This document shows positions 50,632-62,338 of a stretch of DNA of 64,000 nt, piece after piece. Each line of letters starts with the position of its first letter. Positions within the stretch are counted from its first letter, which is position 1. A program made the translations under genes and the position numbers. The notes under the pieces were generated by a model. That model did not search any database and had not been told where the DNA came from. It worked only from the letters and a program-made list of their open reading frames with translations. The DNA is from Halobacillus shinanisalinarum (GTDB taxonomy: Bacteria > Bacillota > Bacilli > Bacillales > Halobacillaceae), in contig NZ_CP095074.1 in NCBI RefSeq assembly GCF_022919835.1, forward strand, positions 2,356,001 to 2,420,000, read 5' to 3'.

Positions 50632-50651
50632 ATAAGGCACGTGATTTATTA

Positions 50652-50722
50652 GCCCCGTAGCTCAGGGATAGAGCATCGGTTTCCTAAACCGTGTGTCGCA
50701 GGTTCGAATCCTGCCGGGGGCG
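50652..50722 (+). tRNA. tRNA-Arg (CCT)
   Basis: Anticodon CCT in loop TTCCTAA flanked by CGGT/ACCG, and T-arm GCAGGTTCGAATCCTGC. The 3' acceptor strand is CGGGGGC but the 5' strand reads GCCCCG, one C short, and the D-loop has GGG where relatives usually have GGGG. Either two homopolymer undercalls or real changes. The 3' half is repeated at 59.16-59.2 kb, marking this gene as an integration site. Confidence 0.9.
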
Positions 50723-50847
50723 TTACTTAAAAACACTGGGGTACAAGGGATATAGCTTATACACCCCAATGATAAAATGGCGCGTTTTTAAATCTTTGGC
50801 TAAATTTTGGCTAATTCAATTTTAAAACGTGCCATTTTCCGTTTCTA

Positions 50848-51060
50848 GTGGTGAGTGACATGAAAGATGTTTCATTCAATGATCTTTCGCAATCCGGTCA
50901 TTTCTGGAATAAGAACGCAGAAAAAAGTATTTCAGAGTGGCTACATCCTATATATCTGACTTTCATTGAATCTCTTGTGAAGAAGGAGTTGAAATTCAAA
51001 ACCCCAAAAGAAAACCTCCCCCTCTATAGGTGGGAAAGTATTCTTCGACCTGAAGGATAA
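50848..51060 (+). CDS. Hypothetical protein, 70 aa
   Basis: Unrecognised small polar protein (MKDVSFNDLSQSGHFWNKNAEKS from ATG 50860). Weak ribosome-binding site. The 100 bp before it includes the odd text GGCTAAATTTTGGCTAA next to the tRNA, perhaps part of the attachment region. Could be spurious. Confidence 0.35.
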   Translation: MVSDMKDVSFNDLSQSGHFWNKNAEKSISEWLHPIYLTFIESLVKKELKFKTPKENLPLYRWESILRPEG

Positions 51061-51161
51061 AAAACGAGAAGCGATATAATTGTTTTGAAGTTTATCTTGA
51101 TACTGAGTCTTCCATATAAGGGCCATTTAACAGCATAAAAGAAGAAGATAGTGTTTTAAAT

Positions 51162-51981
51162 ATGAAGCGGAAATTAATGATTTTTATAAGTTTGTTTTTT
51201 GTTTTTTTACTTACGGGATGTATAGGTGAAGATTATGATTTCAACCCTCCTAACGCCTTCATTGAGAGTCATCTTGATTTTGTTAAAGGAGAATTGAAGA
51301 CAGCGAATATCAATTGGGATTCTGACAAGAAGTATACGAAAAAAATAGATGACATTGATTCCCTTGCAAAAGAACAAGAGCCATTACATTATTATTCTGG
51401 ACAAAAGATGGATATAAGATTTGATAAGGGATATAAGGATTGATAACATAAATATTTATGTAAAACAAGACGGTGAAAAAACGGAACTTCAAGTTGATGA
51501 TCAAGTTTTTGAGATGCCGAAAGAAGAAGGCAATTATCTTATTGTTGTAAAGCTTGAAGCTGATAGTGGAAACACGGAATATGTAGGAAATCTTGATGTT
51601 CGGGAAAGAGATGATAACCCTTATCCTCCTAGGGTTTCACTTGATAATAATTCAGATGAGGCAGATAAAGAAGAATTAGAATCATATAAAGCAGACTGGC
51701 GAGAATACACAGAAGAAACAGATGATATGTCATTATTTAGAAACGGACTAGAGTCATTAAACCATGATTCTGGCGAGCAGATGGAGATATCATTTGATCA
51801 TCATAACTTTGAAATCGAGGATCTGCGTGTTTATGCGCACCATAACGACGAAAAAACGAATTTACCAGTTAAAGATAAATTCTTTGATTTGCCAGAAGAA
51901 GAAAGGGATTACATTATTGTTGTGAAGCTTCTTACGGATAAAGGTAGCGCCGAATATGCAGGGAATATTATTATCGAATAA
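51162..51981 (+). pseudogene. Lipoprotein with two repeated domains, frameshifted
   Basis: N-terminus MKRKLMIFISLFFVFLLTGC is a lipoprotein signal with lipobox LTGC. The following region splits over two frames: the first ends KGYKD-stop at 51443, the second continues NINIYVKQDGEKTELQ. Removing one G near 51437-51440 joins them into about 272 codons. The two halves are repeats: SGQKMDIRF...DGEKTEL...NYLIVVKLEADSGNTEYVGN and SGEQMEISF...NDEKTNL...DYIIVVKLLTDKGSAEYAGN. No known function; lies in the tRNA-Arg island. Confidence 0.7.
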
Positions 51982-52037
51982 TACTTCCACAAACGGGCGA
52001 TCGGCTAAACGAGGGGTTAATAGAATGGGGCGTCAGA

Positions 52038-52298
52038 ATGGTCAGGAGAAAAAGATTTAAAGTATTATCCTTAGTTTGTTTATTTATTTGTGTACTTGTT
52101 TGGGTTCCTAACATAGTTTTTCAAGTCCCAAGTCCGTTATGGATGATAATTTTTATTATTGCTCCAATCGGGATTGTGTTCGCAGCATTGATAAAAAAAT
52201 ATTGGCTAATTGTTGCTAATACTTTTATGCTCTTCAGCTTTTTTATATTTATGTTTGTGGGGTATTTTGTTAATTACATAACTGATGGAAAGCCTTAA
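52038..52298 (+). CDS. Small membrane protein, 86 aa
   Basis: Three hydrophobic helices (about 8-30, 33-52, 56-80) with a basic N-terminus. No domain recognised. Follows the lipoprotein by about 55 bp, so possibly in one transcript. Ribosome-binding site weak. Confidence 0.55.
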   Translation: MVRRKRFKVLSLVCLFICVLVWVPNIVFQVPSPLWMIIFIIAPIGIVFAALIKKYWLIVANTFMLFSFFIFMFVGYFVNYITDGKP

Positions 52299-52324
52299 AC
52301 TCAATTTATGAGTATTGTGCAACG

Positions 52325-52359
52325 AAGGGCGCAATTCTGGAGCAAAGGATTGCGCTTTT
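52325..52359 (+). terminator. Terminator-like hairpin, part of a short repeat
   Basis: GGGCGCAAT and ATTGCGCTTTT pair around 13 bases. The block to GGGCCATTTTCAGG (about 52327-52385) is similar to 54493-54555. Confidence 0.7.
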
Positions 52360-52478
52360 ATTAATGTATCGGGCCATTTTCAGGAATAACAGATCATGGT
52401 AATCAATACTTATGTTATTTTAATTTTTGGAAACTCAGTATTCAATTTAATAGCGCAAAATCCAGAATATAACGTTTT

Positions 52479-53999
52479 TTAGGATTTCTTTTTACGAGCA
52501 GTAATTCTACCTACACCTAATTCTTTCCCCTCTTTATAGATAGCTTTAATGAAACTGATAGTCATCAGCAGCATGATAATAGAGAATGGCAAAGCGGCAA
52601 TAATCATTGTGTTTTGTAAAGCTTGCAGGCCACCTGTATATAGAAGAGCAAGTGCTGTAGCTGAGAGCAATCCACCCCAGGTTAGTTTAATGATATGACC
52701 GGGATTTTCCGATCCACCAGTAGTCATCATTCCTAGTACAAATGTTCCTGAGTCGGCAGATGTAATAAAGAATGTGCCAATAAGCGAAATAGCTACAATC
52801 GAAGCAACCATGCCTAATGGGTAATTAGAGAAAACACCGAATAATGATTCTTCTGTTGCAAGTGATGAAATCGTATCGATACCACTGTGTTCAAGTGAAA
52901 TAGCTGCTCCTCCAAAAGTTGCAAACCATAAGAATCCAATGACGGACGGAACAAGTAAAACAGTAAATACAAATTCTCTTATGCTGCGTCCCTTGGAAAC
53001 ACGAGCAATAAATATACCCACAAATGGCGACCATGCGATCCACCATGCCCAATAGAATACCGTCCATGTATTAATCCATTCCCTTGTCTCTTCGTTAAGG
53101 GGCGCTATACGAAAACTCATAGCTGGAAGATTCTGAACGTATGTCCCAACTGAATTTGTAAATAAATTTAATATAAATAATGTTGGTCCCATAATAAAAA
53201 TTAAACTAAACAATAAGACCGCCAAAATCATATTGGCATTACTTAAAATTTTAATTCCTTTACCTAACCCAGTCCAAGCTGAAAACATAAAGAGAACGGT
53301 AACGACAACTACAATGATTAGTTGCATGATAAAGTTAATAGGTATGTCAAACAAATAGGACAATCCGCCATTTATCTGGGAAGCGCCAAAGCCAAGTGTT
53401 GTGGCTACCCCTATAACTGTCGCGATGACAGCAAGAATATCAATAACTTTCCCTAAAATTCCGTCCGCACTCTTACCAATAATGGGGTGTAAGGTGGCGC
53501 TGATTAGTCCGGCCTTGCCGTGTCTGAAATGAAAATAAGCTAATACTAGTGCCACAATCCCGTATATCGCCCATGCATGAATTCCCCAATGAAAGTAAGT
53601 AAATCTCATGGCATCCTTTATTGCCTGATCAGTACCTGTTTCCCCTGTCGGAGAGCTGATCGCATAATGACTGATAGGTTCAGCGGTTCCCCAAAACACA
53701 AGCCCTATCCCCATTCCGGCACTGAACAACATGGCAATCCAGGTTGGTCTGGAGAATTCAGGTTTTTCCCCTGGCTTACCAAGTTTGATTTTTCCAAGTG
53801 GACTAATTAAAAATACCAAACATACCAAGACGAATAGTGTCGCCACGATTAAGTAATACCATCCAAATTTGTTTGATATAATTGCTTGAACATCAGTTGT
53901 AGCCGTTTCCAAACCCTCCGGCCATAAGATACCTATAATAACTAGCACCAACATAATTCCTGCCGATATTTTGAATACAGGTGTAAATTTTTTTAGCAT
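52479..53999 (-). CDS. BCCT family betaine/choline/carnitine transporter (OpuD-like)
   Basis: 506-aa secondary carrier with 12 helices, importing glycine betaine or a related solute with sodium for osmotic adaptation. Family landmarks are MGIGLVFWGTAEPISHY, the helix-4 region WGIHAWAIYGIVALVLAYFHFRHG and signature WTVFYWAWWIAWSPFVGIFIARVSKGR. The C-terminal tail is short and basic (KEGKELGVGRITARKKKS). AAGGAG upstream. Osmoprotectant uptake fits a salt habitat. Confidence 0.95.
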   Translation of the reverse strand: MLKKFTPVFKISAGIMLVLVIIGILWPEGLETATTDVQAIISNKFGWYYLIVATLFVLVCLVFLISPLGKIKLGKPGEKPEFSRPTWIAMLFSAGMGIGLVFWGTAEPISHYAISSPTGETGTDQAIKDAMRFTYFHWGIHAWAIYGIVALVLAYFHFRHGKAGLISATLHPIIGKSADGILGKVIDILAVIATVIGVATTLGFGASQINGGLSYLFDIPINFIMQLIIVVVVTVLFMFSAWTGLGKGIKILSNANMILAVLLFSLIFIMGPTLFILNLFTNSVGTYVQNLPAMSFRIAPLNEETREWINTWTVFYWAWWIAWSPFVGIFIARVSKGRSIREFVFTVLLVPSVIGFLWFATFGGAAISLEHSGIDTISSLATEESLFGVFSNYPLGMVASIVAISLIGTFFITSADSGTFVLGMMTTGGSENPGHIIKLTWGGLLSATALALLYTGGLQALQNTMIIAALPFSIIMLLMTISFIKAIYKEGKELGVGRITARKKKS

Positions 54000-54700
54000 A
54001 GATGAAGGACTCCTTATCTGGAAGTTAATGCACTCGTCCTCTTCAGCAATACGAAAGGGGATCAGGAGTTTTAAAAAATATTCTAAGTCTTATTATCTTT
54101 AGGACACTTAATTTTATTCATTATTGGAGTAGGTATCAGAATTTTATAGAGAATGATTGAAGATACATAATTTGCAATGTGTAGTGTATATGGCGAAGAT
54201 AAAGACAACTTTCATAATCAACTAGTGAAATTATCACAAACTTTATTGCAGTAATATTTGCTAAAGGGATAACTGAAGAAACTATACTGACAAAATTTAT
54301 TTAGCACCCGAGTTTTTATAAAAGCGGCTATATGGGCTGTCTGAATTTTAGTCGGATTGATAATCTACACAAAATTCATCCCTAAATTTTTCCTTGCATA
54401 GAATTTGGCCAAAGCCTAGCTAGACAAATATTCCTATGCCAATACTCTTTTGGGTATAGTCTAAAACCGTTTCAGAAGTGTCTTCCATTATCCGGCGCGC
54501 GATTCTGTAAAAAGGATCAGCGCTTATTTTTCAATTAAAGGGCCATTATCTGGAAGACTTGAATTCGAGATAAATGTGAAATTTATTACAGATACGAAGG
54601 GCCATATAATGGAGTACGAAAGAAAAGGGGAGTAGGTCGAGTCAAAATTACTGGAGCATATCTAAAGTATCATTTTGTGTTAGAGTAAGGGTGACAAAAT
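54000..54700. other. Gene-poor stretch with decayed coding scraps
   Basis: No intact gene. Plus-strand scraps look like former coding sequence: VYGEDKDNFHNQLVKLSQ at about 54187-54255, a hydrophobic stretch near 54315-54400, and GPLSGRLEFEINVKF... at about 54540-54635 ending in TAG without a start. A hairpin repeat lies at 54493-54555. Codes for nothing complete. Confidence 0.45.
54493..54555 (+). repeat. Short hairpin repeat, second copy
   Basis: GCGCGCGATTCTG...AAAGGATCAGCGCTT then ATTAAAGGGCCATTATCTGG. It parallels 52327-52385 (GGGCGCAATTCTGG...AAAGGATTGCGCTT...GGGCCATTTTCAGG): same order, hairpin plus GGGCCATT box. Confidence 0.55.
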
Positions 54701-54706
54701 TTAGGG

Positions 54707-55375
54707 GTGATTAGGTTATTGTTTTGGGAGAAGTGGTGGAATATGAGCCTTTTAGCTAAATGGGGTATTGGCATTGCAGGAGTTATTGGATTTGTAATTG
54801 TGTTTTTGGTAATTGCTTTTATTATTGAAGTAAGTCCTAATCAGGGTAAGGAAAATAAAGTCAAAGAACAAGCAAAAACTTATATAGCAAAAACTTATAC
54901 AGATGAAATGAATGTTTATGATACATTATACGATAATATGGGAAACCATCCTGAATTTGAGTATGCAGCAAAAGTCAGGAATGAAAAAACAGGTATTACG
55001 TTTCTAGTCTATCAGGATGAAAGAACATCAAATATGGAAGATACTTATACTTCTGAATTGATGGAATCTAAGCTTTCTGACAGATTAGAACCGCATATTG
55101 AAAAAATGTTTGAGCAGGTCGATAAGGTACGTGTAATTTATGAACAGACAAGTGCAAGCAAAGAGTTTAATAGTAAAGAAGATAGACCAAATATACAGGA
55201 GTCAGAAGCAACGCCAACAATTAATGTTGTACTGAACCGTGAGAGCAAAGAAACTGACGAAAAAACACTAAATTCTTTAGTGAAAATTATAAAAAATGAT
55301 ATAGGTCTTAAACACGCTTTTGTGTCGATTGAGTACTCAGATTATCCAGCGAAAGTCTTGAAAAAAGAGTATTAA
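54707..55375 (+). CDS. Hypothetical membrane-anchored protein
   Basis: Up to 222 aa. One membrane helix near residues 18-42 (WGIGIAGVIGFVIVFLVIAFII) and an extracellular, charged, mixed alpha/beta domain rich in D, E and K. No family recognised. Starts are uncertain: GTG 54707, TTG 54719 or ATG 54743 (with a close GGTGG). Ends before a long non-coding stretch. Confidence 0.6.
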   Translation: MIRLLFWEKWWNMSLLAKWGIGIAGVIGFVIVFLVIAFIIEVSPNQGKENKVKEQAKTYIAKTYTDEMNVYDTLYDNMGNHPEFEYAAKVRNEKTGITFLVYQDERTSNMEDTYTSELMESKLSDRLEPHIEKMFEQVDKVRVIYEQTSASKEFNSKEDRPNIQESEATPTINVVLNRESKETDEKTLNSLVKIIKNDIGLKHAFVSIEYSDYPAKVLKKEY

Positions 55376-55614
55376 ATAAGGAGTTAATTCTACAGCTCTG
55401 AAGTTAAACCGCCTCCCTTTATCCATCTAATTGGAGCTTTTTAACTTGCTTCAGAATACCCAGCTAATAGAAGTTTGGTAATAGCTTTGAGCAATATTAT
55501 CATGAATCCTAGTCTTCATGATAAGGGGCGCACTTATTGAATAAAAAAAATAACTTTATTGTTGTCAATATTCTTGATTGCGATATTTGGGTTAAGCAAA
55601 CAATTTTTTTTAGC

Positions 55615-55642
55615 TGCCGCATTTTTCAAAGGAAAAATGCGG
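55615..55642. terminator. Hairpin at the end of the integrase relic
   Basis: GCCGCATTTTTC and GAAAAATGCGGC around AAAG; perfect 12-bp arms. Confidence 0.7.
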
Positions 55643-56105
55643 CTTCCTTCTGAATGTTCGACATGACATGAGAATATAAATCAAGGAGTGACCGTGATCG
55701 ACGAGTGCCCGAACCTCTCCTGAGCTACTTTCGGAGTGCCTTCATGTTTACAAAGTCGTATGAGTATGTCTCATATCATGAAAGCGAATAGGCTTAACAG
55801 CAGATTCTTTTAAGACTGAGCTCAGTATCAACGGTTTAAGAGGTGTAAAAGGTCCCGTTTCTCGTAGTAAAAACAAGACCTTGTTCTTCATGCTTTGTCT
55901 GTTTTCCATCTTCTAAGCCATTTGATTTTTCTTATGTTGTTTTAGCGCTTCATTGACGTGATCAAACAAGGATATGGTCCGTTCAGCATAATTCGTTTTG
56001 AGGTCCCCAATTTCATACCCCACGTTTTTTCTTACGGACGGCCTGAGTGACAACTAGTACACAGGAAAGGTCTTCAAAAAGAGCTCTTGGTGGAGATTAG
56101 TCTGC
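55625..56105 (-). pseudogene. Tyrosine recombinase (phage-type integrase) relic
   Basis: Reading the minus strand over several frames gives a degraded integrase catalytic domain in correct order: LVVTQAVRKK (about 56050), YEIGDLKTNYAERTISLFD (about 55970-56020), EEQGLVFTTRNGTFYT, KPIRFHDMRHTHTTL with the HxxR motif (about 55750-55795), GTPKVAQERFGHSSITVT (about 55690-55740) and LDLYSHVMSNIQKEA with the nucleophile Tyr (about 55640-55684). Stops and frameshifts between these parts mean it is dead. It lies inside the tRNA-Arg island and explains its origin. The gap from 56105 to 56349 shows nothing else. Confidence 0.8.
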
Positions 56106-56348
56106 TGTTCCACCATCCATTTAATAAGGTTATCAGTCAACTTTCTATCTAACTCTGTTCAAAATCTTGTACAAGAGATTATGTGCTATTCATTAAAGGT
56201 CACTATGTCTACTCTTTTCTGAATGCCAACTATAACATTGAATATCTCCTGTTATGTAGTAGTTATGTTTTTTAAATCTGGTTACATACTTGAGTTTAGT
56301 TGGGACAAACTACAAATTAGAAAACTGTTAATAATTGGAGTGAACTAA

Positions 56349-57362
56349 ATGGGGCAAGAGGAAAAACAGATTAAATTAACCTCAGCAGAAATAACTCAAC
56401 TTTGGGTAGGTTATATGAATGACAGTGCATTGAGCTGTAAGCTAGAATTTTTTTTAGCCAAAGTAAAGGATAAAGAAATTAGACCACTCATCCAGCAAGC
56501 ATTAGACTTAGCTCAAGGAAATATGAAAAGTCTAACTGAGATTTTTAATAAAGAAAATTATCCAATTCCATATGGGTTCAAAATGGAGGAGGATGTAGAT
56601 ATTTCTGCTCCCATTTTGTTTTCTGACACCTATATTTTACATTACCTTCATCATGGGGCACAAATTGCCCTACAAGGATACAGTATCAGCTTGACTTTAG
56701 CTGTTAGAGCAGATGTATATAGTTATTTTAGTGAATGTATTTCACAATTGGATGAATTTCTAAGAGAAACAAAGGAATTATTGTTATCTAAGGGGCTATA
56801 TATAAGGTCACCATACCTTCCAGAACCAGATAATATCGACTTTGTAAAAAGTCAGAGTTTCCTTACAGGTTATTTAGGTGAAAGAAGACCTTTGGCTGGT
56901 ATAGAAATAACAAATCTTTTTTCTAATTTTCAAAGAAATGCTATAGGAATAGCCACTATGATGGGGTTTAGTCAGGTTGCAAAATCTAAAGAGGTTAGAA
57001 AGTTTCTTGCTAGAGGAAAAGAAATATCTTCTAAACATTGTGAGGTATTCGGGTCAATTATGAAAGAGGATGACCTACCTATCCCCATGACATTGGATAC
57101 AGAAGTTACAGACTCAACTACCTACACCTTTTCTGATAAGCTAATGATGTTCTACAGCACATCTTTAATTGCCTTAAGTGTTGGTTTTTATGGTTCAAGT
57201 ATGGCAATGAGTCCTAGAAGGGATTTAGGTGTAAAATATAGCAGGTTAATAGCTGAAATACTTAAGTATGCTGAGGATGGGGCTAACATCATGATTAAAA
57301 ATGGATGGATGGAGGAACCACCTAGAGCGTTGGATAGAGATGAGTTAGCAAAGAAAAAATAA
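56349..57362 (+). CDS. DUF3231 family protein
   Basis: 337 aa, made of two similar helical halves (about 10-165 and 180-335): LTSAEITQLWVGYMNDSALSCKLEFFL pairs with LAGIEITNLFSNFQRNAIGIATMMGF, and DVDISAPILFSDTYILHYLHH with DSTTYTFSDKLMMFYSTSL. This ferritin-like duplicated layout is typical of DUF3231 in Bacillus, where function is unknown. GGAG site before ATG. AT-rich, inside the island. Confidence 0.85.
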   Translation: MGQEEKQIKLTSAEITQLWVGYMNDSALSCKLEFFLAKVKDKEIRPLIQQALDLAQGNMKSLTEIFNKENYPIPYGFKMEEDVDISAPILFSDTYILHYLHHGAQIALQGYSISLTLAVRADVYSYFSECISQLDEFLRETKELLLSKGLYIRSPYLPEPDNIDFVKSQSFLTGYLGERRPLAGIEITNLFSNFQRNAIGIATMMGFSQVAKSKEVRKFLARGKEISSKHCEVFGSIMKEDDLPIPMTLDTEVTDSTTYTFSDKLMMFYSTSLIALSVGFYGSSMAMSPRRDLGVKYSRLIAEILKYAEDGANIMIKNGWMEEPPRALDRDELAKKK

Positions 57363-57450
57363 ATTCACCTGCTACTAAATTGCCCTTAGATGTTGTTTCC
57401 TATGATTTAACTTTATCTGAACATGACTATTCTTGTCTAAACCATTTATG

Positions 57451-57970
57451 TTATTTTGTTACTAAGATGTTAATTACTTCTTCGGTTGTTTTTGCAATAA
57501 GCTCGTCATCAGATTCGGCGTCTTTTAGGTCATGGCTAGAAAGAACAGCGAAAAAAATAGGCTCCCCATTCGGTGGCCAGATAATTGCAATATCATTACG
57601 CGTACCATAGGATGCTGATCCTGATTTACCTCCAACTTCCCATCACTCCGGAACACCTGCTCGAATCAAGGTACCTCCAGTCGTGTTGCGCTTCAGCCAA
57701 TCTATCAGCAAATCTTGTTTTTCTGGGGGAAGGGCATCCCCTGGTTCTACCTCATTTAGCGCGGGTTCAATTCTTTCCGGTTCCGTGACGTCCTCCCTGA
57801 TTTGACGGAAGTGCTTCCTTGAATTCCTTCAGGTCCACCTATCTGCTCTAGTATGAGATTGGCAGCAGTGTTATCGCTATATCGAGTGGCAGCATCACTT
57901 AGTTAGTTCCCTCAATGTCATCCCTATATCCACATGCTTTTCTGTAATAATCGGGTTATAATTCACAACT
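57451..57970 (-). pseudogene. Class A beta-lactamase (penicillinase), broken
   Basis: The minus strand encodes pieces of a B. licheniformis-type penicillinase: [17 protein letters not shown] near 57940, then [20 protein letters not shown] (SDN motif), ALPPEKQDLLIDWLKRNTTGGTLIRAGVPE, WEVGGKSGSASYGTRNDIAIIWPPNGEPIFFAVLSS (KSG motif) and a normal stop. A TGA interrupts GVPE/WEVG at about 57643, frameshifts separate the parts, and the first third with the signal peptide and the SxxK serine is missing. It cannot give resistance as it stands. Confidence 0.85.
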
Positions 57971-57977
57971 CATTCAT

Positions 57978-58328
57978 TTACAGATGACTAAGAATATTGA
58001 TAAGCCTCCCGAATGGATCCCTTACATAAAACCGCTGAACTCCCCATGGCTCCTTAGCTGGTCCATACTCAATTGGAATCCCTGCTTCTTTTATGCGAGT
58101 TAACGCGTCATCGAGATTATCGACTTCAATTGACAGGTCAGGCACAGGTGTTCCGGAACCTCCTTGTGAGAGAAAACTGATTTGAGTGTCCATTTTCTCA
58201 TGCGATCCGTAAGTTGCAATAAATCCTATATCCATCAATTGATCAAGTCCGAGCACATCCTCGTAAAAGGACTTTGCTTTGATAATGTTCTGTGTCTCAA
58301 CATTGGCAACAATTCGTTTGACCTTCAT
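57978..58328 (-). CDS. VOC (glyoxalase/bleomycin-resistance fold) protein
   Basis: 116-aa single VOC module pair: AKSFYEDVLGLDQLMDIGFIATYG and IEVDNLDDALTRIKEAGIPIEYGPAKEPWGVQRFYVRDPFGRLINIL. It may bind a small molecule or metal; substrate unknown. Site GAGTGAGG before ATG. The truncated beta-lactamase starts right after its stop. Confidence 0.88.
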   Translation of the reverse strand: MKVKRIVANVETQNIIKAKSFYEDVLGLDQLMDIGFIATYGSHEKMDTQISFLSQGGSGTPVPDLSIEVDNLDDALTRIKEAGIPIEYGPAKEPWGVQRFYVRDPFGRLINILSHL

Positions 58329-58606
58329 TTATACCTCACTCCTTAGCTCTTTTACGTTGCTATTAACTTCTACAATCACTTAAAATAATCCTTGTTTAGC
58401 TAAACTGATCCTTAGCATAGGTGCGATCCTTCCCGAAATTCACACCAATCTCAACATAGATATCCAATTTCGTTTGAAGATCTAATTCATACGAGTAGGT
58501 AAAGATTTCCGCTTCCTCGGGGATGTTTCTATCTATTTAAAAGTAGTTTAACTTAACTTACCTATAAATTATTTAAGGATGGGAAACAAGGAAAAAGTCC
58601 GTTTGA

Positions 58607-59014
58607 TTAATTTTTACTTTCTAGTATGTCCTTAATAATGGCAATATGAAAGGAAGCCCATGCCTTCTCGCGAAAGTGGAGAATGACACTCATCGTTAGT
58701 ATTACTATGTAAGATAAAACAAACACTACACCCCATGGTAATATCCCATTGCTAAATATAAATTTTTGTAATTGTTCTGAAAATAGAAATAACAGCCATG
58801 GCCCTGTAGAAACAAAAATAGGGATAATCCCTGATCCGTTCTTTTCTTTTATCATGCGATAAAGGATTTTTTCTAATGTATCTGAATCAATGGTTAAATA
58901 GAAATGTTGGATCTCAGTAACTTCTCTAATTGCTTCGATCTTATTAAAGGAGTGGCTTCTTTCGTATGTTTTTTTAAGTTTAATATAAAATTTATGTGCA
59001 TCACCACGAAACAT
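58607..59014 (-). CDS. Hypothetical membrane protein, 135 aa
   Basis: Soluble basic N-terminal part (MFRGDAHKFYIKLKKTYERSH) and two hydrophobic helices (about 66-85 and 93-115). No domain recognised. ATG 59014 with GGAGG about 10 bp upstream is preferred; a longer frame begins at TTG 59083. The 58330-58600 stretch before it in sequence holds no clear gene. Confidence 0.55.
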   Translation of the reverse strand: MFRGDAHKFYIKLKKTYERSHSFNKIEAIREVTEIQHFYLTIDSDTLEKILYRMIKEKNGSGIIPIFVSTGPWLLFLFSEQLQKFIFSNGILPWGVVFVLSYIVILTMSVILHFREKAWASFHIAIIKDILESKN

Positions 59015-59146
59015 AACCGTAATCCCTCCGTCGAGTTTCTGCGTATTATAAGAATTAACATATAAAAATTTTTTATGCACCAACCTTCGCCTTTTCAGCA
59101 GAATGTATTAACATCAGTGGGATTTAAAGTAAAAAACTTGAAAAAC

Positions 59147-59198
59147 GCCCCTCAATGATTCCAAATCGTGTGTCGCAGGTTCGAATCCTGGCGGGGCA
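59147..59198 (+). repeat. tRNA-Arg 3'-end copy (candidate attR)
   Basis: CGTGTGTCGCAGGTTCGAAT followed by CCTGGCGGGGC matches the 3' part of tRNA-Arg at 50689-50718 with one mismatch (C to G); TTCCAAAT before it is a shortened form of TTCCTAAAC. A preceding GCCCC at 59147 can pair with GGGGC, so a deleted tRNA copy is an alternative. Cloverleaf otherwise absent. Confidence 0.75.
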
Positions 59199-59252
59199 CT
59201 TTTAAAACTATTGATCCACGGTGATTACCATGGAATTTTTATTGAGAAATAT

Positions 59253-59795
59253 TTAGGTATAATCACCATAATCCTCATTAACTTTACTAATTCCACTCAT
59301 TTCTCGGATTAATTTCTGATCAAATATTGAACCAATGTATTGGTTTTCTAAATGTTCTAATCTTCGGGAAGCAAACTGTGGTGTGACCCCAAAAGTTGAT
59401 GCTACTTCATAGATAGCTTGAGGTTTTCTAAAAGGAAGATCCATTTGAAGCAGCATGAAGGTCGGTACACAAACATGCAAGGCAAAGTTGTCAGCTTTCC
59501 ATTCTTGGTACGCAAGAAATGATGCTGGCATATTGAATTGGCTGCCATGATGCATCATGATATGGCATAGTTCATGACCAAAGATTTGCCAACGTTCCTC
59601 ATTAGACAGCTGTTTATTAATGAACATCCGTTTCTTTCCCTTATAAATCATCGCTTCACTTTTATCGTTCCAATAATGGACGTGAATGTTCAGTCTTTCC
59701 ATAATATGATCGATAGTAAGTTGATTTGGTGTTTGTATAGATAGAAATAAAAGAAATTCCCTCATGTAACTTTCAAGTGGTGTGTAATGATACAT
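59253..59795 (-). CDS. ImmA/IrrE-family metallopeptidase
   Basis: 180-aa zinc peptidase of the type that cleaves XRE repressors of mobile elements. HExxH active site in IFGHELCHIMMHHGSQF, followed by EWKADNFALHVCVPTFML with the third-ligand Glu region, and a helical C-terminus. ATG 59795 has AAGGAGGGAGG upstream; the longer frame from 59855 would start upstream of a LexA box and is rejected. It follows the XRE gene in the same direction. Confidence 0.9.
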   Translation of the reverse strand: MYHYTPLESYMREFLLFLSIQTPNQLTIDHIMERLNIHVHYWNDKSEAMIYKGKKRMFINKQLSNEERWQIFGHELCHIMMHHGSQFNMPASFLAYQEWKADNFALHVCVPTFMLLQMDLPFRKPQAIYEVASTFGVTPQFASRRLEHLENQYIGSIFDQKLIREMSGISKVNEDYGDYT

Positions 59796-59813
59796 AGAAC
59801 CTCCCTCCTTAAC

Positions 59814-59827
59814 GGAACATATGTTCG
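59814..59827 (-). promoter_or_regulatory. LexA (SOS) box before the ImmA-type gene
   Basis: Minus strand CGAACATATGTTCC fits the B. subtilis consensus CGAACRNRYGTTYC at every position. It lies just upstream of the ribosome-binding site of the peptidase gene and downstream of two hairpins, where it would block a transcript start. Confidence 0.75.
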
Positions 59828-59843
59828 ATTTAAATGTAAAAAG

Positions 59844-59925
59844 AAAAGCCCTCATGACCAGGCTTTAATCTTATATCAATCATAAAATAGATCCTACATT
59901 CGTTCTATTCTACTTTTGTAGGATT
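59844..59925 (-). terminator. Two hairpins between the XRE and ImmA genes
   Basis: Minus strand: ATCCTACA/TGTAGGAT then CTATTTT (59890-59925), and AAAGCC/GGGCTTT then TCTTTTT (59844-59866). They would separate the peptidase transcript from the repressor transcript. Confidence 0.7.
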
Positions 59926-60273
59926 TTATTCACTCTTTATAATTTCCCACATCTTCCTTAACTTTTTTAAATCCTCTTCACTTGATTTAGGGAGATCAGC
60001 ATACCAACGCTGTAAATCAGGATCACTGATAAACGCCTCGAACTCTCTCTCTGATTCTCCTCTTTCTGACTCTTCTGTCATACCCATCAGCCAGTCAATA
60101 GATACACCATAAAGCTTTGCCAGCGTTGATAGCATTTTTTTGTCTGGCTCTCTGTAATTTCTCTCATAACCAGATAGTCTTGAATTTGAGATCCCTAATT
60201 TTTCGCAAACAAGAGTCTGCGACCATCCCTTGTTTTCACGAGCTTGTCTTAACCTTCCACCTAATGAACCCAT
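59926..60273 (-). CDS. XRE-family transcriptional repressor
   Basis: 115-aa phage-type regulator. HTH at about 3-60 (GGRLRQARENKGWSQTLVCEKLGISNSRLSGYERNYREPDKKMLSTLAKLYGVSIDWLMG), then an acidic linker (EESERGESEREFE) and a short C-terminal helical part. ATG 60273 has GAGG 9 bp upstream and fits family starts; ATG 60288 is possible. Its own promoter overlaps a TTTCGCGAAA palindrome, consistent with autorepression. Likely target of the neighbouring peptidase. Confidence 0.9.
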   Translation of the reverse strand: MGSLGGRLRQARENKGWSQTLVCEKLGISNSRLSGYERNYREPDKKMLSTLAKLYGVSIDWLMGMTEESERGESEREFEAFISDPDLQRWYADLPKSSEEDLKKLRKMWEIIKSE

Positions 60274-60313
60274 ACCATTCATCCTCATATCATCTTTAGT
60301 TATTTCTATTAAA

Positions 60314-60430
60314 ATTATACTACTTATTCCACGTTTCGCGAAATATATTGTGCGAAATGTTTAAAAATGGTTGACTTACACGATGCGCGTAATTATAATA
60401 ACAATCAAGCGTTACGCGTTACGCGCAAAA
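60314..60430. promoter_or_regulatory. Divergent XRE/amidase promoters with GCG operators
   Basis: Leftward promoter: TATAAT on minus at 60314-60319, -35 region inside TTTCGCGAAA (60334-60343). Rightward promoter: TTGACT (60371-60376), 17 bp, TATAAT (60394-60399), with GATGCGCGTAAT in the spacer. A related GTGCGAAAT lies at 60350-60358 and GCGTTACGCGTTACGCGC at 60409-60426. The shared GCGAAA/GCGTAA half-sites suggest one regulator acts on both promoters. Confidence 0.7.
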
Positions 60431-60513
60431 CCATGGTTGTATGAACGTGATTGTTCATACGGTAGTCCGTTCCTAAAGTTTTTGGAAGATATTTAAAAGG
60501 AGAGGTTCTTAAT

Positions 60514-61326
60514 ATGGCTTATTTAATTGCACTTGATGATGGACATGGTCTGGAAACACCAGGGAAGCGCACTCCTTATATTGATAGCCTAGGGCGTTCA
60601 ATTAAAGAGAATGAATTTAATCGTGCTGTTGTATCATTCTTAGAAGAGGAGTTACAGAGAAGTGGCTTTGATACGCTGTTAGTGGCCCCTACCGATGATG
60701 ATACGTCGCTTTCTGCTAGGACAACCCGTGCCAATGATGCGGGGGCAGATGCTTATATTTCTGTTCATTATAATGCGTTTGATGGCAGCTTTGACGGCTC
60801 CAATCCAAGTGGAATTGAACTTTACGTGTACCCTGGTCATTTAAATCGTGAGGCAGGACTGTTAGCGAATAGTATGGCCAAGCATTTGAGAGAAGGCACT
60901 CCACAGGACTTTCGCGGAGTAAAAGAGGCGAACTTTCACGTATTGCGTGAAACAGCTATGATTGCTGTACTAACTGAAAATGGTTTCATGGATCATCCTG
61001 ATGAAGCCTTGTTAATGATTGATCCAGAATTCCAAAGGGAGGTTGCAATCGAACATGCTAAGGGGATTTGCGATTACTTTGGGATCAACTATGTTCCAGG
61101 ATACATTGGTCGAAGAGTGGAATCGATCTATCAAGGGGATTTGCGTTTTTATAATCAACCATCTTGGTCAGATTCAGCCGTTGCTGGTTATTTGCAATAT
61201 GGTTATGGCTTTCCAAACATTCTTGACCGGGTACTCGTAGACGGTTCCCCTCAGTATAAAGTAGAAAATTCGGAAGGGGCTGTTTATTATGTAACAGCTA
61301 ATGAAACGTATGTCCGCGTAGTGTAA
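60514..61326 (+). CDS. N-acetylmuramoyl-L-alanine amidase (Amidase_3)
   Basis: 270-aa cell-wall hydrolase. Zinc-dependent catalytic domain about 1-185: IALDDGHGLETPGKRTP (first His), ENEFNRAVVSFLEEEL (Glu), YISVHYNAF (second His), VLTENGFMDHPDE (catalytic Glu). The C-terminal 80 residues (RRVESIYQGDLRFYNQPSW...YYVTANETYVRVV) look like an SH3-type wall-binding domain. No signal peptide, as in phage endolysins, and no holin seen nearby. AGGAGAGG upstream; the promoter overlaps the repressor operator region. Confidence 0.93.
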   Translation: MAYLIALDDGHGLETPGKRTPYIDSLGRSIKENEFNRAVVSFLEEELQRSGFDTLLVAPTDDDTSLSARTTRANDAGADAYISVHYNAFDGSFDGSNPSGIELYVYPGHLNREAGLLANSMAKHLREGTPQDFRGVKEANFHVLRETAMIAVLTENGFMDHPDEALLMIDPEFQREVAIEHAKGICDYFGINYVPGYIGRRVESIYQGDLRFYNQPSWSDSAVAGYLQYGYGFPNILDRVLVDGSPQYKVENSEGAVYYVTANETYVRVV

Positions 61327-61333
61327 ATAAGGT

Positions 61334-61361
61334 AGAACCCGGAGTTTGCTCCGGGTTCGTT
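61334..61361 (+). terminator. Terminator after the amidase gene
   Basis: GAACCCGGAG and CTCCGGGTTC around TTTG, then GTTTATCTTT. Confidence 0.85.
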
Positions 61362-61384
61362 TATCTTTCACTTTCAAAATTTAC

Positions 61385-61579
61385 TCATATTAGAAAGTCG
61401 TTAACGGCAATGCCTTGCTCTGAATTGTTCCTAATTATAGACTGATTACTTTGCTCTTCGTAAAACATGTCAGCAATAAACAAGTAGGTGATAATTAATC
61501 CTGTTACAATCATCACTGAGAGGAAAGCGATTAGGAGTACGCGTAAACCATACTTTACATACTTAGGGTTCTTTTTCAT
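61385..61579 (-). CDS. Small single-pass membrane protein, 64 aa
   Basis: Basic start (MKKNPKYVKYGLR) then one membrane helix (about 14-37) and an Asn-rich outer tail. Unknown. A GGGAGG site precedes ATG. Near the amidase it might be considered a holin-like partner, but it is transcribed the opposite way. Confidence 0.6.
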   Translation of the reverse strand: MKKNPKYVKYGLRVLLIAFLSVMIVTGLIITYLFIADMFYEEQSNQSIIRNNSEQGIAVNDFLI

Positions 61580-61708
61580 GGTTTCAAAAACCTCCCTACA
61601 ACCAGTGCGAATATGGTAGGAAATAAGAAAAGGGTTTCATATAATATATTTTACCTAATAATTCCATATTCTTCAACTAACCACCCAATTGGTAGGCAGG
61701 AACAACTC

Positions 61709-62338
61709 CTATTCATTTATGTGCATAGAGAGGTGACCATCCTTTATAGGGAGGATTCGATCAGCTAACTTTCTTGCCTCTTCCTTATCATGTGTGACTA
61801 GGATAATCGGAATCTGCCATAATTCACGAAGGCGCAAGAGCTCTTGGTGGCACTGTTCTTTGGTCTCCTGATCAAGTGATGAGAATGGTTCATCAAGAAG
61901 GAGGAGATCGGGATGGGTAGCCAATGCACGGGCTAATGCTGTCCGTTGCTTTTCGCCTCCGGATATTTGTCGTGGGTATTTATTAAGTAAGTGTTTTATT
62001 CCAACAACATCTACAAGTTTATCAACAAGCTCTAGGTCAGTTGCACCATATGTAATATTTTTATAAACCGTCATATGCGGAAAAAGGGCATAATCCTGGA
62101 ACAAGTAGCCAATTTTACGCTTTTGCACGGGAATAGGTTTACTTTTCGTATGAAAAAGTGTCTGATCATTAAGCTTTATTTTCCCTTCATCGGGGTGAGT
62201 TAGTCCAGCGATACAGTTGAGGATAGTGGTTTTGCCGGAGCCAGATGGGCCAAACAAAACGACGGTCTCATTTCCGACCTGTAAGGATATATCCAGAGTG
62301 AAGTTAGACAGTTTCTTCTTGATCATTACCGATAGCAT
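61709..62338 (-). CDS. modC: Molybdate ABC transporter ATP-binding protein
   Basis: 209-aa ATPase. Walker A FGPSGSGKTTIL near 29-40, Q-loop FQDYALFP, signature ISGGEKQRTALARAL, Walker B LLLLDEPFSSLD, H-loop VTHDKEEA. It lacks the C-terminal MOP/TOBE domain of Proteobacterial ModC, so it is a short form. ATG 62338 has GGAGG 8 bp upstream. Last of modA-modB-modC. Confidence 0.88.
   Translation of the reverse strand: MLSVMIKKKLSNFTLDISLQVGNETVVLFGPSGSGKTTILNCIAGLTHPDEGKIKLNDQTLFHTKSKPIPVQKRKIGYLFQDYALFPHMTVYKNITYGATDLELVDKLVDVVGIKHLLNKYPRQISGGEKQRTALARALATHPDLLLLDEPFSSLDQETKEQCHQELLRLRELWQIPIILVTHDKEEARKLADRILPIKDGHLSMHINE

Follow-up and report, generated by a model that had tools for sequence, protein, structure and literature searches.

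The window analyzed here is a stretch of 64,000 nucleotides (nt) from the single 4.89-Mb contig of Halobacillus shinanisalinarum (NZ_CP095074.1, positions 2,356,001 to 2,420,000), and its positions 59253..61361 are occupied by a compact three-gene module situated between the tRNA-Arg(CCT) gene and modABC (modA and modB score above the NCBIfam cut-offs; modC is the best match, yet below its cut-off). On the minus strand lie a gene for an ImmA-type (M78, HEXXH) peptidase of 180 amino acids (aa; 59253..59795, from the ATG at 59795) and a gene for an XRE (ImmR-like) repressor of 120 aa (59926..60288). Divergent from them, on the plus strand, is the gene (60514..61326) for an Amidase_3 endolysin-type lysin with a C-terminal SH3b-like domain and no evident signal peptide, which is followed by a bidirectional terminator-like hairpin found by a sequence scan (61335..61358). 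The family searches assigned the peptidase to PF06114 (5.1e-18) and to phrog_87 metallo-protease (5.6e-27), both with a reading frame longer than the 180-aa one, the repressor to HTH_3 (6e-18), and the lysin to Amidase_3 (PF01520, 1e-34) and to phage-endolysin families of PHROG that cover both of its halves; the NCBIfam search gave no above-cut-off match for any of the three proteins. An earlier sequence-only reading of this DNA, in which XRE and ImmA-like peptidase genes face a cytosolic Amidase_3 with an SH3-like tail, with operators at both divergent promoters and a LexA box at the peptidase gene, is thus borne out in its description of the parts.

The grouping is not fortuitous. The XRE-lysin pair, together with its promoter and operators, was found at one place in nine of the 11 Halobacillus genomes searched, that of the window (G000) included; the named relatives that carry the locus are H. 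hunanensis, H. andaensis, H. campisalis and the strains A5, Marseille-P3879, and A1. Amidase relatives occur in all 61 genomes at E 1e-3, and full-length close orthologues at this place only in the nine genus members. In all eight relatives the pair adjoins the mod genes, and in six of the eight, two kinase-like genes and tRNA-Arg are found within the same 20-kb stretch; G007 and G009 seem to have another element in between, to judge by a tRNA 3′ copy. This synteny argues against a late import of the module, which was rejected. Six of the 54 lysin loci outside the window's genome carry this XRE gene, all six in Halobacillus, and the other 48 lack it within 6 kb. The lysin was absent from the flanks (mostly 1.5 kb) of 23 other XRE loci, taken from 397 genomes of the order and one viral contig. 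The parts of the module are already known, and their combination into an XRE-lysin pair was not found outside the genus in the loci examined.

Two forms of the module can be distinguished. In clade A (the window, G006, G007, and G008) the order is peptidase-XRE-lysin, with no holin at the locus. In clade B (G001, G002, G003, G009, and G010) there is no peptidase, and a Hol118-type holin (PF06946, five of five) is present on the far side of XRE, in the direction of the lysin, with a dN/dS (ratio of nonsynonymous to synonymous substitution rates) of 0.048–0.124 in the measurable pairs. H. andaensis is one of the species with a holin and no peptidase. The proposal to look for the three-gene layout in other genomes gave three such loci and five further Halobacillus loci with XRE and lysin only. 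Since the pair persists in these five species, it can be regarded as the stable core of the module.

The lysin has what characterizes an Amidase_3 phage endolysin, i.e., the catalytic domain with its active-site residues, an SH3b-like tail and no evident signal peptide, and is predicted to be muralytic. Residues H11, E32, H85, and E155, presumably those of the active site, are invariant in an alignment of 34 relatives. The AlphaFold2 model reached a pLDDT (predicted local distance difference test) score of 93, and the catalytic half matched CwlV and other Amidase_3 structures in the structure search as well as in the sequence search. The isolated C-terminal 77 residues were modeled as a beta domain that is SH3b-like according to Foldseek, with the wall-binding domains of lysins, ALE-1, and lysostaphin as best matches (best E 0.037, none reaching E 0.001). 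No hydrophobic N-terminus was detected in a hydropathy scan of the first 50 residues (maximum −0.09; no dedicated signal-peptide predictor was run). The dN/dS ratio, calculated for up to ten pairs per gene with dS saturated in several, was 0.034–0.118 for the lysin and 0.040–0.122 for XRE (six of ten pairs measurable in each case), and for the neighbors 0.023–0.039 (modB), 0.035–0.076 (kinase-like gene), 0.049–0.182 (modC), and 0.081–0.198 (modA). Judged by these ratios, lysin and XRE are both under purifying selection. The closest other endolysins, standing behind holin genes in prophage-like regions of G000 and G007, are 77% identical over the catalytic domain in one case and 75% in each of two pieces in the other. 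Among the phage records listed as matches (12 for each protein), the best relative of the lysin reaches 67.5% over 71% and that of XRE 63% over 54%, and no record is common to both lists. In Rossellomorea and related Bacillus (L054, L055, L059–L067, L070–L075) a solitary relative of the lysin is found, about 49–55% identical over nearly the full length; many of these genes share a chromosomal place, no such XRE lies within 6 kb, and the five starts examined show no signal peptide.

The control region between XRE and lysin is conserved as well. Residues 33–49 of XRE, which are taken to hold the recognition helix, are identical in all nine module repressors. The motif TTACGCG/CGCGTAA occurs 22 times in the nine (related) XRE-lysin intergenic regions, as compared with 0.88 per shuffle set, and none of 1000 sets reached 22; two looser operator patterns gave the same enrichment verdict. 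In the window an operator pair, TTTCGCGAAA and TTGTGCGAAATG (60334..60359), recognized by reading and by the enrichment test, covers the repressor promoter, whose −10 hexamer TATAAT was read directly at 60314..60319 (minus strand); this side is less conserved in the relatives. A further operator, GTTACGCGTTACGCGCAA (60411..60428), lies just 3′ of the lysin −10, and its CGCG-centered form GTTACGCGT(T/A)ACGCG is present in seven of the nine loci, with a variant in G003 and G010. The exact lysin-side operator has a single match in the 4.9-Mb genome, resident prophage included. The lysin promoter, TTGACT-17-TATAAT (60371..60399, plus strand), agrees with the consensus in 11 of 12 bases and is the best of eight promoter-like sites in 58500–61800. 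As the scan of this region as a whole was not enriched (eight sites versus 11.8 expected in shuffles), the weight of the promoter rests on its conservation: TTGACT is kept in the XRE-lysin spacer of all nine loci, and the −10 is TATAAT or a near match. That XRE also controls the resident prophage was considered and rejected, as no exact operator exists elsewhere and sites with three mismatches elsewhere number five, versus four for the reversed control pattern. An inverted repeat in the lysin leader, TATGAAC-N6-GTTCATA, was rejected as a LexA box because its spacing is wrong and the segment is missing in five of nine loci.

The peptidase combines the HEXXH motif with an adjacent XRE gene, as ImmA/M78 anti-repressor proteases do, and may cleave the repressor. 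Residues H74, E75, H78, and E98 are invariant in six aligned sequences, dN/dS was 0.183 and 0.115 (two of four pairs measurable), and the sequence search of the PDB gave no match. The start at 59795 was preferred to that at 59855, because the longer frame would include the LexA box and the short start is common to the window and the three peptidase-bearing relatives. The box itself, GAACATATGTTC (59815..59826, minus strand), lies directly 5′ of this start and occupies an identical position in each of the four module loci with a peptidase, where its inner tetramer takes three different forms; this points to the peptidase gene as a probable member of the LexA regulon. Since a terminator-like hairpin (59845..59866, minus strand; similar in the alignment of four loci) separates the gene from XRE, a promoter of its own seems likely; it is not certain, the promoter scan having found no site of 9/12 bases there. 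The bare LexA pattern, CGAACNNNNGTTC, is not enriched genome-wide, since it has 22 matches at 20 places in the window's genome versus 41 for the reversed control. In this genome LexA boxes precede parE (truncated by the locus), dinB, a second polymerase-IV-type gene, and a second immA (L232, G000:C1:651500-653900), where the box lies just upstream and is followed by TATAAT. A box was also found before ImmA in a prophage of G030 and in an element of G061. The latter (XRE-ImmA, L132 and L135), taken for an integrative and conjugative element, contains an integrase-like gene and then large proteins resembling conjugation genes.

Although no holin is encoded at the window locus, each of the clade A genomes has a Hol118-type holin gene (PF06946, four of four) at a fixed position ahead of ilvE, with ilvB and ilvC next in line (these names were checked in G000 only). 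The four holin genes lie at L265 6408–6773, L266 6594–6884, L267 6868–7161, and L268 7045–7386, and no phage gene was recognized beside them. All nine holins of the module genomes match PF06946, five at the module locus and four beside ilvE; the holin search flagged a stop in the aligned stretch in G000, G006, and G004, which falls at the C-terminal end and leaves frames of 96–121 aa open. The window's genome has one more Hol118-type holin in its prophage-like region. Thus, a holin outside that region is retained in all nine module genomes; in clade B it is linked to the module, in clade A it is not. In G004 and G005 a holin stands at the tRNA-Arg/kinase locus, but XRE and a close lysin are absent. 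A motif common to the upstream regions of the holin genes was sought, and only a loosely shared TACTATA element, not interpretable, was seen in some. An ion-channel (Ion_trans_2) gene is divergent from the clade B holin in G001 (L034 11281–12069) and G003 (L035 8072–8848), with a relative in G010 and a shorter one in G009.

Where the module could come from is indicated by G030, a member of another genus of the same family, in which a prophage of about 48 kb occupies the locus from tRNA-Arg to a tRNA 3′ copy beside modB (only its two ends were fetched). Starting from tRNA-Arg, it encodes an integrase, an M78 peptidase (49% identical), an SNase-domain protein, XRE (48%), and divergent genes; its far end carries a holin of SPP1 type and an endolysin of Amidase_3 type that is 60% identical over the catalytic domain. 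Its site, its kinds of genes, and their orientations are those of the module. In the XRE tree the module repressors fall in one supported group (100/96), although two outside proteins (P0012, P0025) nest in it on a long branch; three proteins whose contexts were not seen also bore the module label, namely P0007 (identical to G002), P0008 from H. seohaensis, and P0009 from strain B23F22_1. Vertical inheritance at one locus through the genus under selection, as in elements of the PBSX or monocin type, agrees with the nine of 11 genomes and with the dN/dS values, and the gene trees fit it only in part. At the window locus itself no virion, replication, or intact integration gene was recognized. 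The family search found no phage-tail structural genes there (in the eight relatives most flanking open reading frames were mapped, and not searched against the family libraries), and ten neighboring window proteins had no PHROG match annotated as virion structure or integration, the sole match of a nucleic-acid category being the ATPase-type one of the modC protein. With three genes, and with an integrase fragment and a tRNA copy that were assigned to a neighboring island, the locus does not constitute a complete prophage. It is concluded that the module probably descends from a prophage at this site; lysin-domain exchange with prophages is possible.

It is considered probable that the module goes back to a temperate phage once integrated at tRNA-Arg(CCT), of which it is a domesticated remnant, kept as an immunity switch, an endolysin, and a holin, and wired to the SOS response in clade A. 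What would be retained from the phage is XRE, in some species with the ImmA-type peptidase, set directly before the endolysin, plus one Hol118-type holin. According to this model, XRE would bind GTTACGCG-type operators over both divergent promoters, thereby repressing the strong sigma-A-type lysin promoter and controlling itself, and in clade A LexA would hold off the peptidase gene. Upon DNA damage the loss of LexA would allow the peptidase to be made, the peptidase would inactivate XRE, and the lysin would be made and accumulate in the cytoplasm, until the holin or any membrane lesion let it reach the wall and the damaged cell lysed. The binding of LexA and XRE, the cleavage, the induction, the partnership of holin and lysin, the lysis, and the exact descent from a prophage are inferred.

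The fixed place, the purifying selection, the operators, the sister-genus prophage at the same site, and the lack of a full prophage around the module give good support to the domesticated or reduced lysis switch that the sequence-only reading had put forward. Its putative SOS link is supported for the four peptidase-bearing species by their conserved LexA box; five of the nine species have no peptidase. Its statement that no other phage genes lie nearby stands as far as a full prophage is concerned, and has to be amended for an integrase remnant (55638–56032), a tRNA-Arg 3′ copy (59171–59198), and the holin that adjoins the repressor in five related loci. An endolysin-release device, its other suggestion, is conceivable at most; the holin is missing at the window locus and kept elsewhere in the genome.

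Several observations weigh against the model of a domesticated, SOS-wired phage remnant. The peptidase is present in four of nine species, and of the other five, G001 and G002 have no ImmA-type gene at all at E 1e-10 and G003, G009, and G010 only distant ones, so that SOS control does not extend to the family as a whole. In the G030 prophage the holin is of SPP1 type and the endolysin ends in another kind of tail (PG_binding, SLH), which makes this prophage a counterpart rather than the ancestor. The best lysin tree needs two groups for the module lysins, with two prophage lysins falling with clade A; a single module-lysin clade appears in 4% of 200 bootstrap trees and is not rejected (approximately unbiased test, p-AU 0.131). 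A strict single XRE clade is contradicted, since the supported branches that nest the two outside proteins force two label changes. Co-regulation of holin and lysin is not evident, because the holin genes have neither a LexA box nor a conserved XRE operator (a lone TTACGCG stands about 215 nt upstream in G000 only). The ilvE-side holin is no closer to the holins of the module locus than prophage holins are (about 60%), and XRE lies between holin and lysin, an order not to be expected if a prophage had simply lost its interior.

Three other explanations were weighed. The repressor could have been kept to block incoming phages with its operators, the lysin being a passenger whose promoter stayed attached. 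The invariance of XRE residues 33–49 in nine loci would suit such an immunity relic, as would the tRNA 3′ copies in G007, G009, and G030, which suggest that other elements used the tRNA-Arg site; yet the lysin is under selection comparable with that of its neighbors and keeps its four putative active-site residues, and the genome, resident prophage included, offers no other exact operator match, which makes this explanation unlikely. It is also rather improbable that the lysin is a housekeeping wall enzyme, serving mother-cell lysis in sporulation or wall turnover like CwlC, with a phage-type switch that sets its level. Mother-cell lysis by CwlC needs no signal peptide, and the solitary Rossellomorea relatives would fit such a role, whereas the lysin promoter is close to the sigma-A consensus and lies under repressor operators (no search for a sporulation-type promoter was made), and the tail resembles SH3b, not SPOR.

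Least credible, and to be given very little weight, is the idea of a stress-regulatory or toxin-antitoxin-like pair, made up of XRE and the M78 peptidase, that arrived later and by chance took over a lysin promoter. An XRE/metalloproteinase pair has been studied as a toxin-antitoxin system (PMC10538038), and the peptidase is found in only four of nine loci, but XRE and lysin persist in the five species without it.

The module can be set beside several known systems. The Listeria monocin is likewise phage-derived, chromosomal, and vertically inherited through most of its genus, with a CI-like repressor and an M78/DUF955 anti-repressor protease (PMC6872733); it differs in having 17 genes with tail structures and a lysis module, whereas the module has no recognized structural gene, its lysin sits directly on the divergent promoter of the repressor, and the holin is found beyond the repressor or at another place. 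SOS lysis in Listeria depends on the M78 protease MpaR, which was assayed for cleavage of both repressors (PMC6872733). XkdA is the M78 protein and Xre the repressor of PBSX, a particle-making element of Bacillus subtilis. PBSX (Xre, XkdA, XhlAB-XlyA) shares the phage origin, and its xkdA is listed under LexA/SOS (PMC3896406); unlike in PBSX, the lysin is the only target found for the module repressor besides XRE itself. The holin-endolysin genes of PBSX lie in the late operon, are induced by mitomycin C, and release vesicles; in response to damage the prophage holin-endolysin set of B. subtilis produces vesicles, and neighboring cells can be affected by the lysin that is set free (PMC5589764). 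In ICEBs1 the genes for an XRE repressor and an M78 peptidase also stand side by side, and ImmA cleaves ImmR (PMC11841131). The analogy drawn in the sequence-only reading has to be amended for the control, as ImmA of ICEBs1 is described as being activated by the RecA-dependent response or RapI (PMC11841131) and the module peptidase gene has instead a LexA box and a terminator-like hairpin before it, which points to LexA control of the gene itself; no conjugation genes were seen at the module locus, unlike in ICEBs1. Tum of coliphage 186 is a LexA-controlled product that inhibits the prophage repressor, in a whole prophage, and is not described as a protease in PMC12637031. The Listeria and B. 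subtilis cases show that such a chain can work, though not that it does so in the module. No account of a module that is present throughout a genus and reduced to a repressor and a lysin, with an optional LexA-driven protease and a holin possibly elsewhere, was found in searches of the open-licence literature, outside of which much of the older PBSX and LexA work lies.

The LexA box was also sought before ImmA-type genes across the order. The sample comprised 70 of 83 listed ImmA-type matches from 249 genomes (13 were not fetched) and five loci already known to carry the box, i.e., L161–L190 and L213–L252 together with L031–L033, L131, and L132. Of the 75 genes, 28 have a box in the 150 nt before them, 26 of these at 27–54 nt; without the seven loci known beforehand to carry it (the five just named, the window, and L232) the count is 21 of 68, with 19 at 27–54 nt. 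The controls gave one in 1500 for shuffles and four in 1490 for other windows of the same loci, a control set that excludes the upstream regions of unrelated genes. The box-bearing genes come from 11 of the numbered families and are related, hence they are not independent events. In five loci (L232, L239, L245, L250, and L252) the box is followed at once by TATAAT, an arrangement that resembles a LexA-blocked promoter. With LexA boxes before their ImmA-type protease genes, mobile elements of the order may possibly share a general SOS relay. There is a precedent for LexA control of such a gene, since a Bacillus pumilus table lists xkdA of PBSX under LexA/SOS (PMC3896406).

A broader interpretation can be offered tentatively, at somewhat under even chances: the genus would have turned a dead prophage into a stand-alone, cargo-free system of programmed lysis, with a repressor acting directly on the endolysin, a LexA-driven protease trigger in one clade, and the holin as a cellular gene, linked or unlinked, and alongside this LexA control of ImmA-type genes would be a general SOS relay in the mobile elements of the order. 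If so, lysis would release DNA, vesicles, or common goods from damaged cells, or would abort phage infection. Domesticated phage lysis is usually explained by released goods such as tail bacteriocins and gene transfer agents. Because no releasable product is recognized here, yet lysin and repressor are selected across the genus, a system of three or four genes makes it possible to test what lysis itself contributes to fitness, and the conserved LexA box makes the path from SOS to an ImmA-type protease a testable transcriptional relay.

Two features flank the module. On its peptidase side, a copy of the tRNA-Arg 3′ end (59171..59198, plus strand; none in 100 shuffles; intact tRNA at 50650–50723) is interpreted as a scar left by the distal attachment site of another island, decayed and 8.5 kb long, with the module just outside. 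This island (50650–59198, from tRNA-Arg to its 3′ copy) contains a BCCT transporter and a decayed integrase fragment (55638–56032; 59% to the G030 prophage integrase), and was not found between tRNA-Arg and the module in G006. That the module is part of the island was rejected, as it lies outside and is present in the island-free G006. On the lysin side, convergent with it, a small protein of 64 aa with a single membrane span is encoded at 61385–61579, and the gene map places relatives beside modC in seven of the eight module relatives (not G007). As a holin it was rejected, its PHROG match being weak (1e-3), and it was assigned to the modC side, because a relative (45% over 40 residues) lies beside modC in the lysin-free G004 and a 103-aa protein with a similar-looking hydrophobic stretch lies there in G014.

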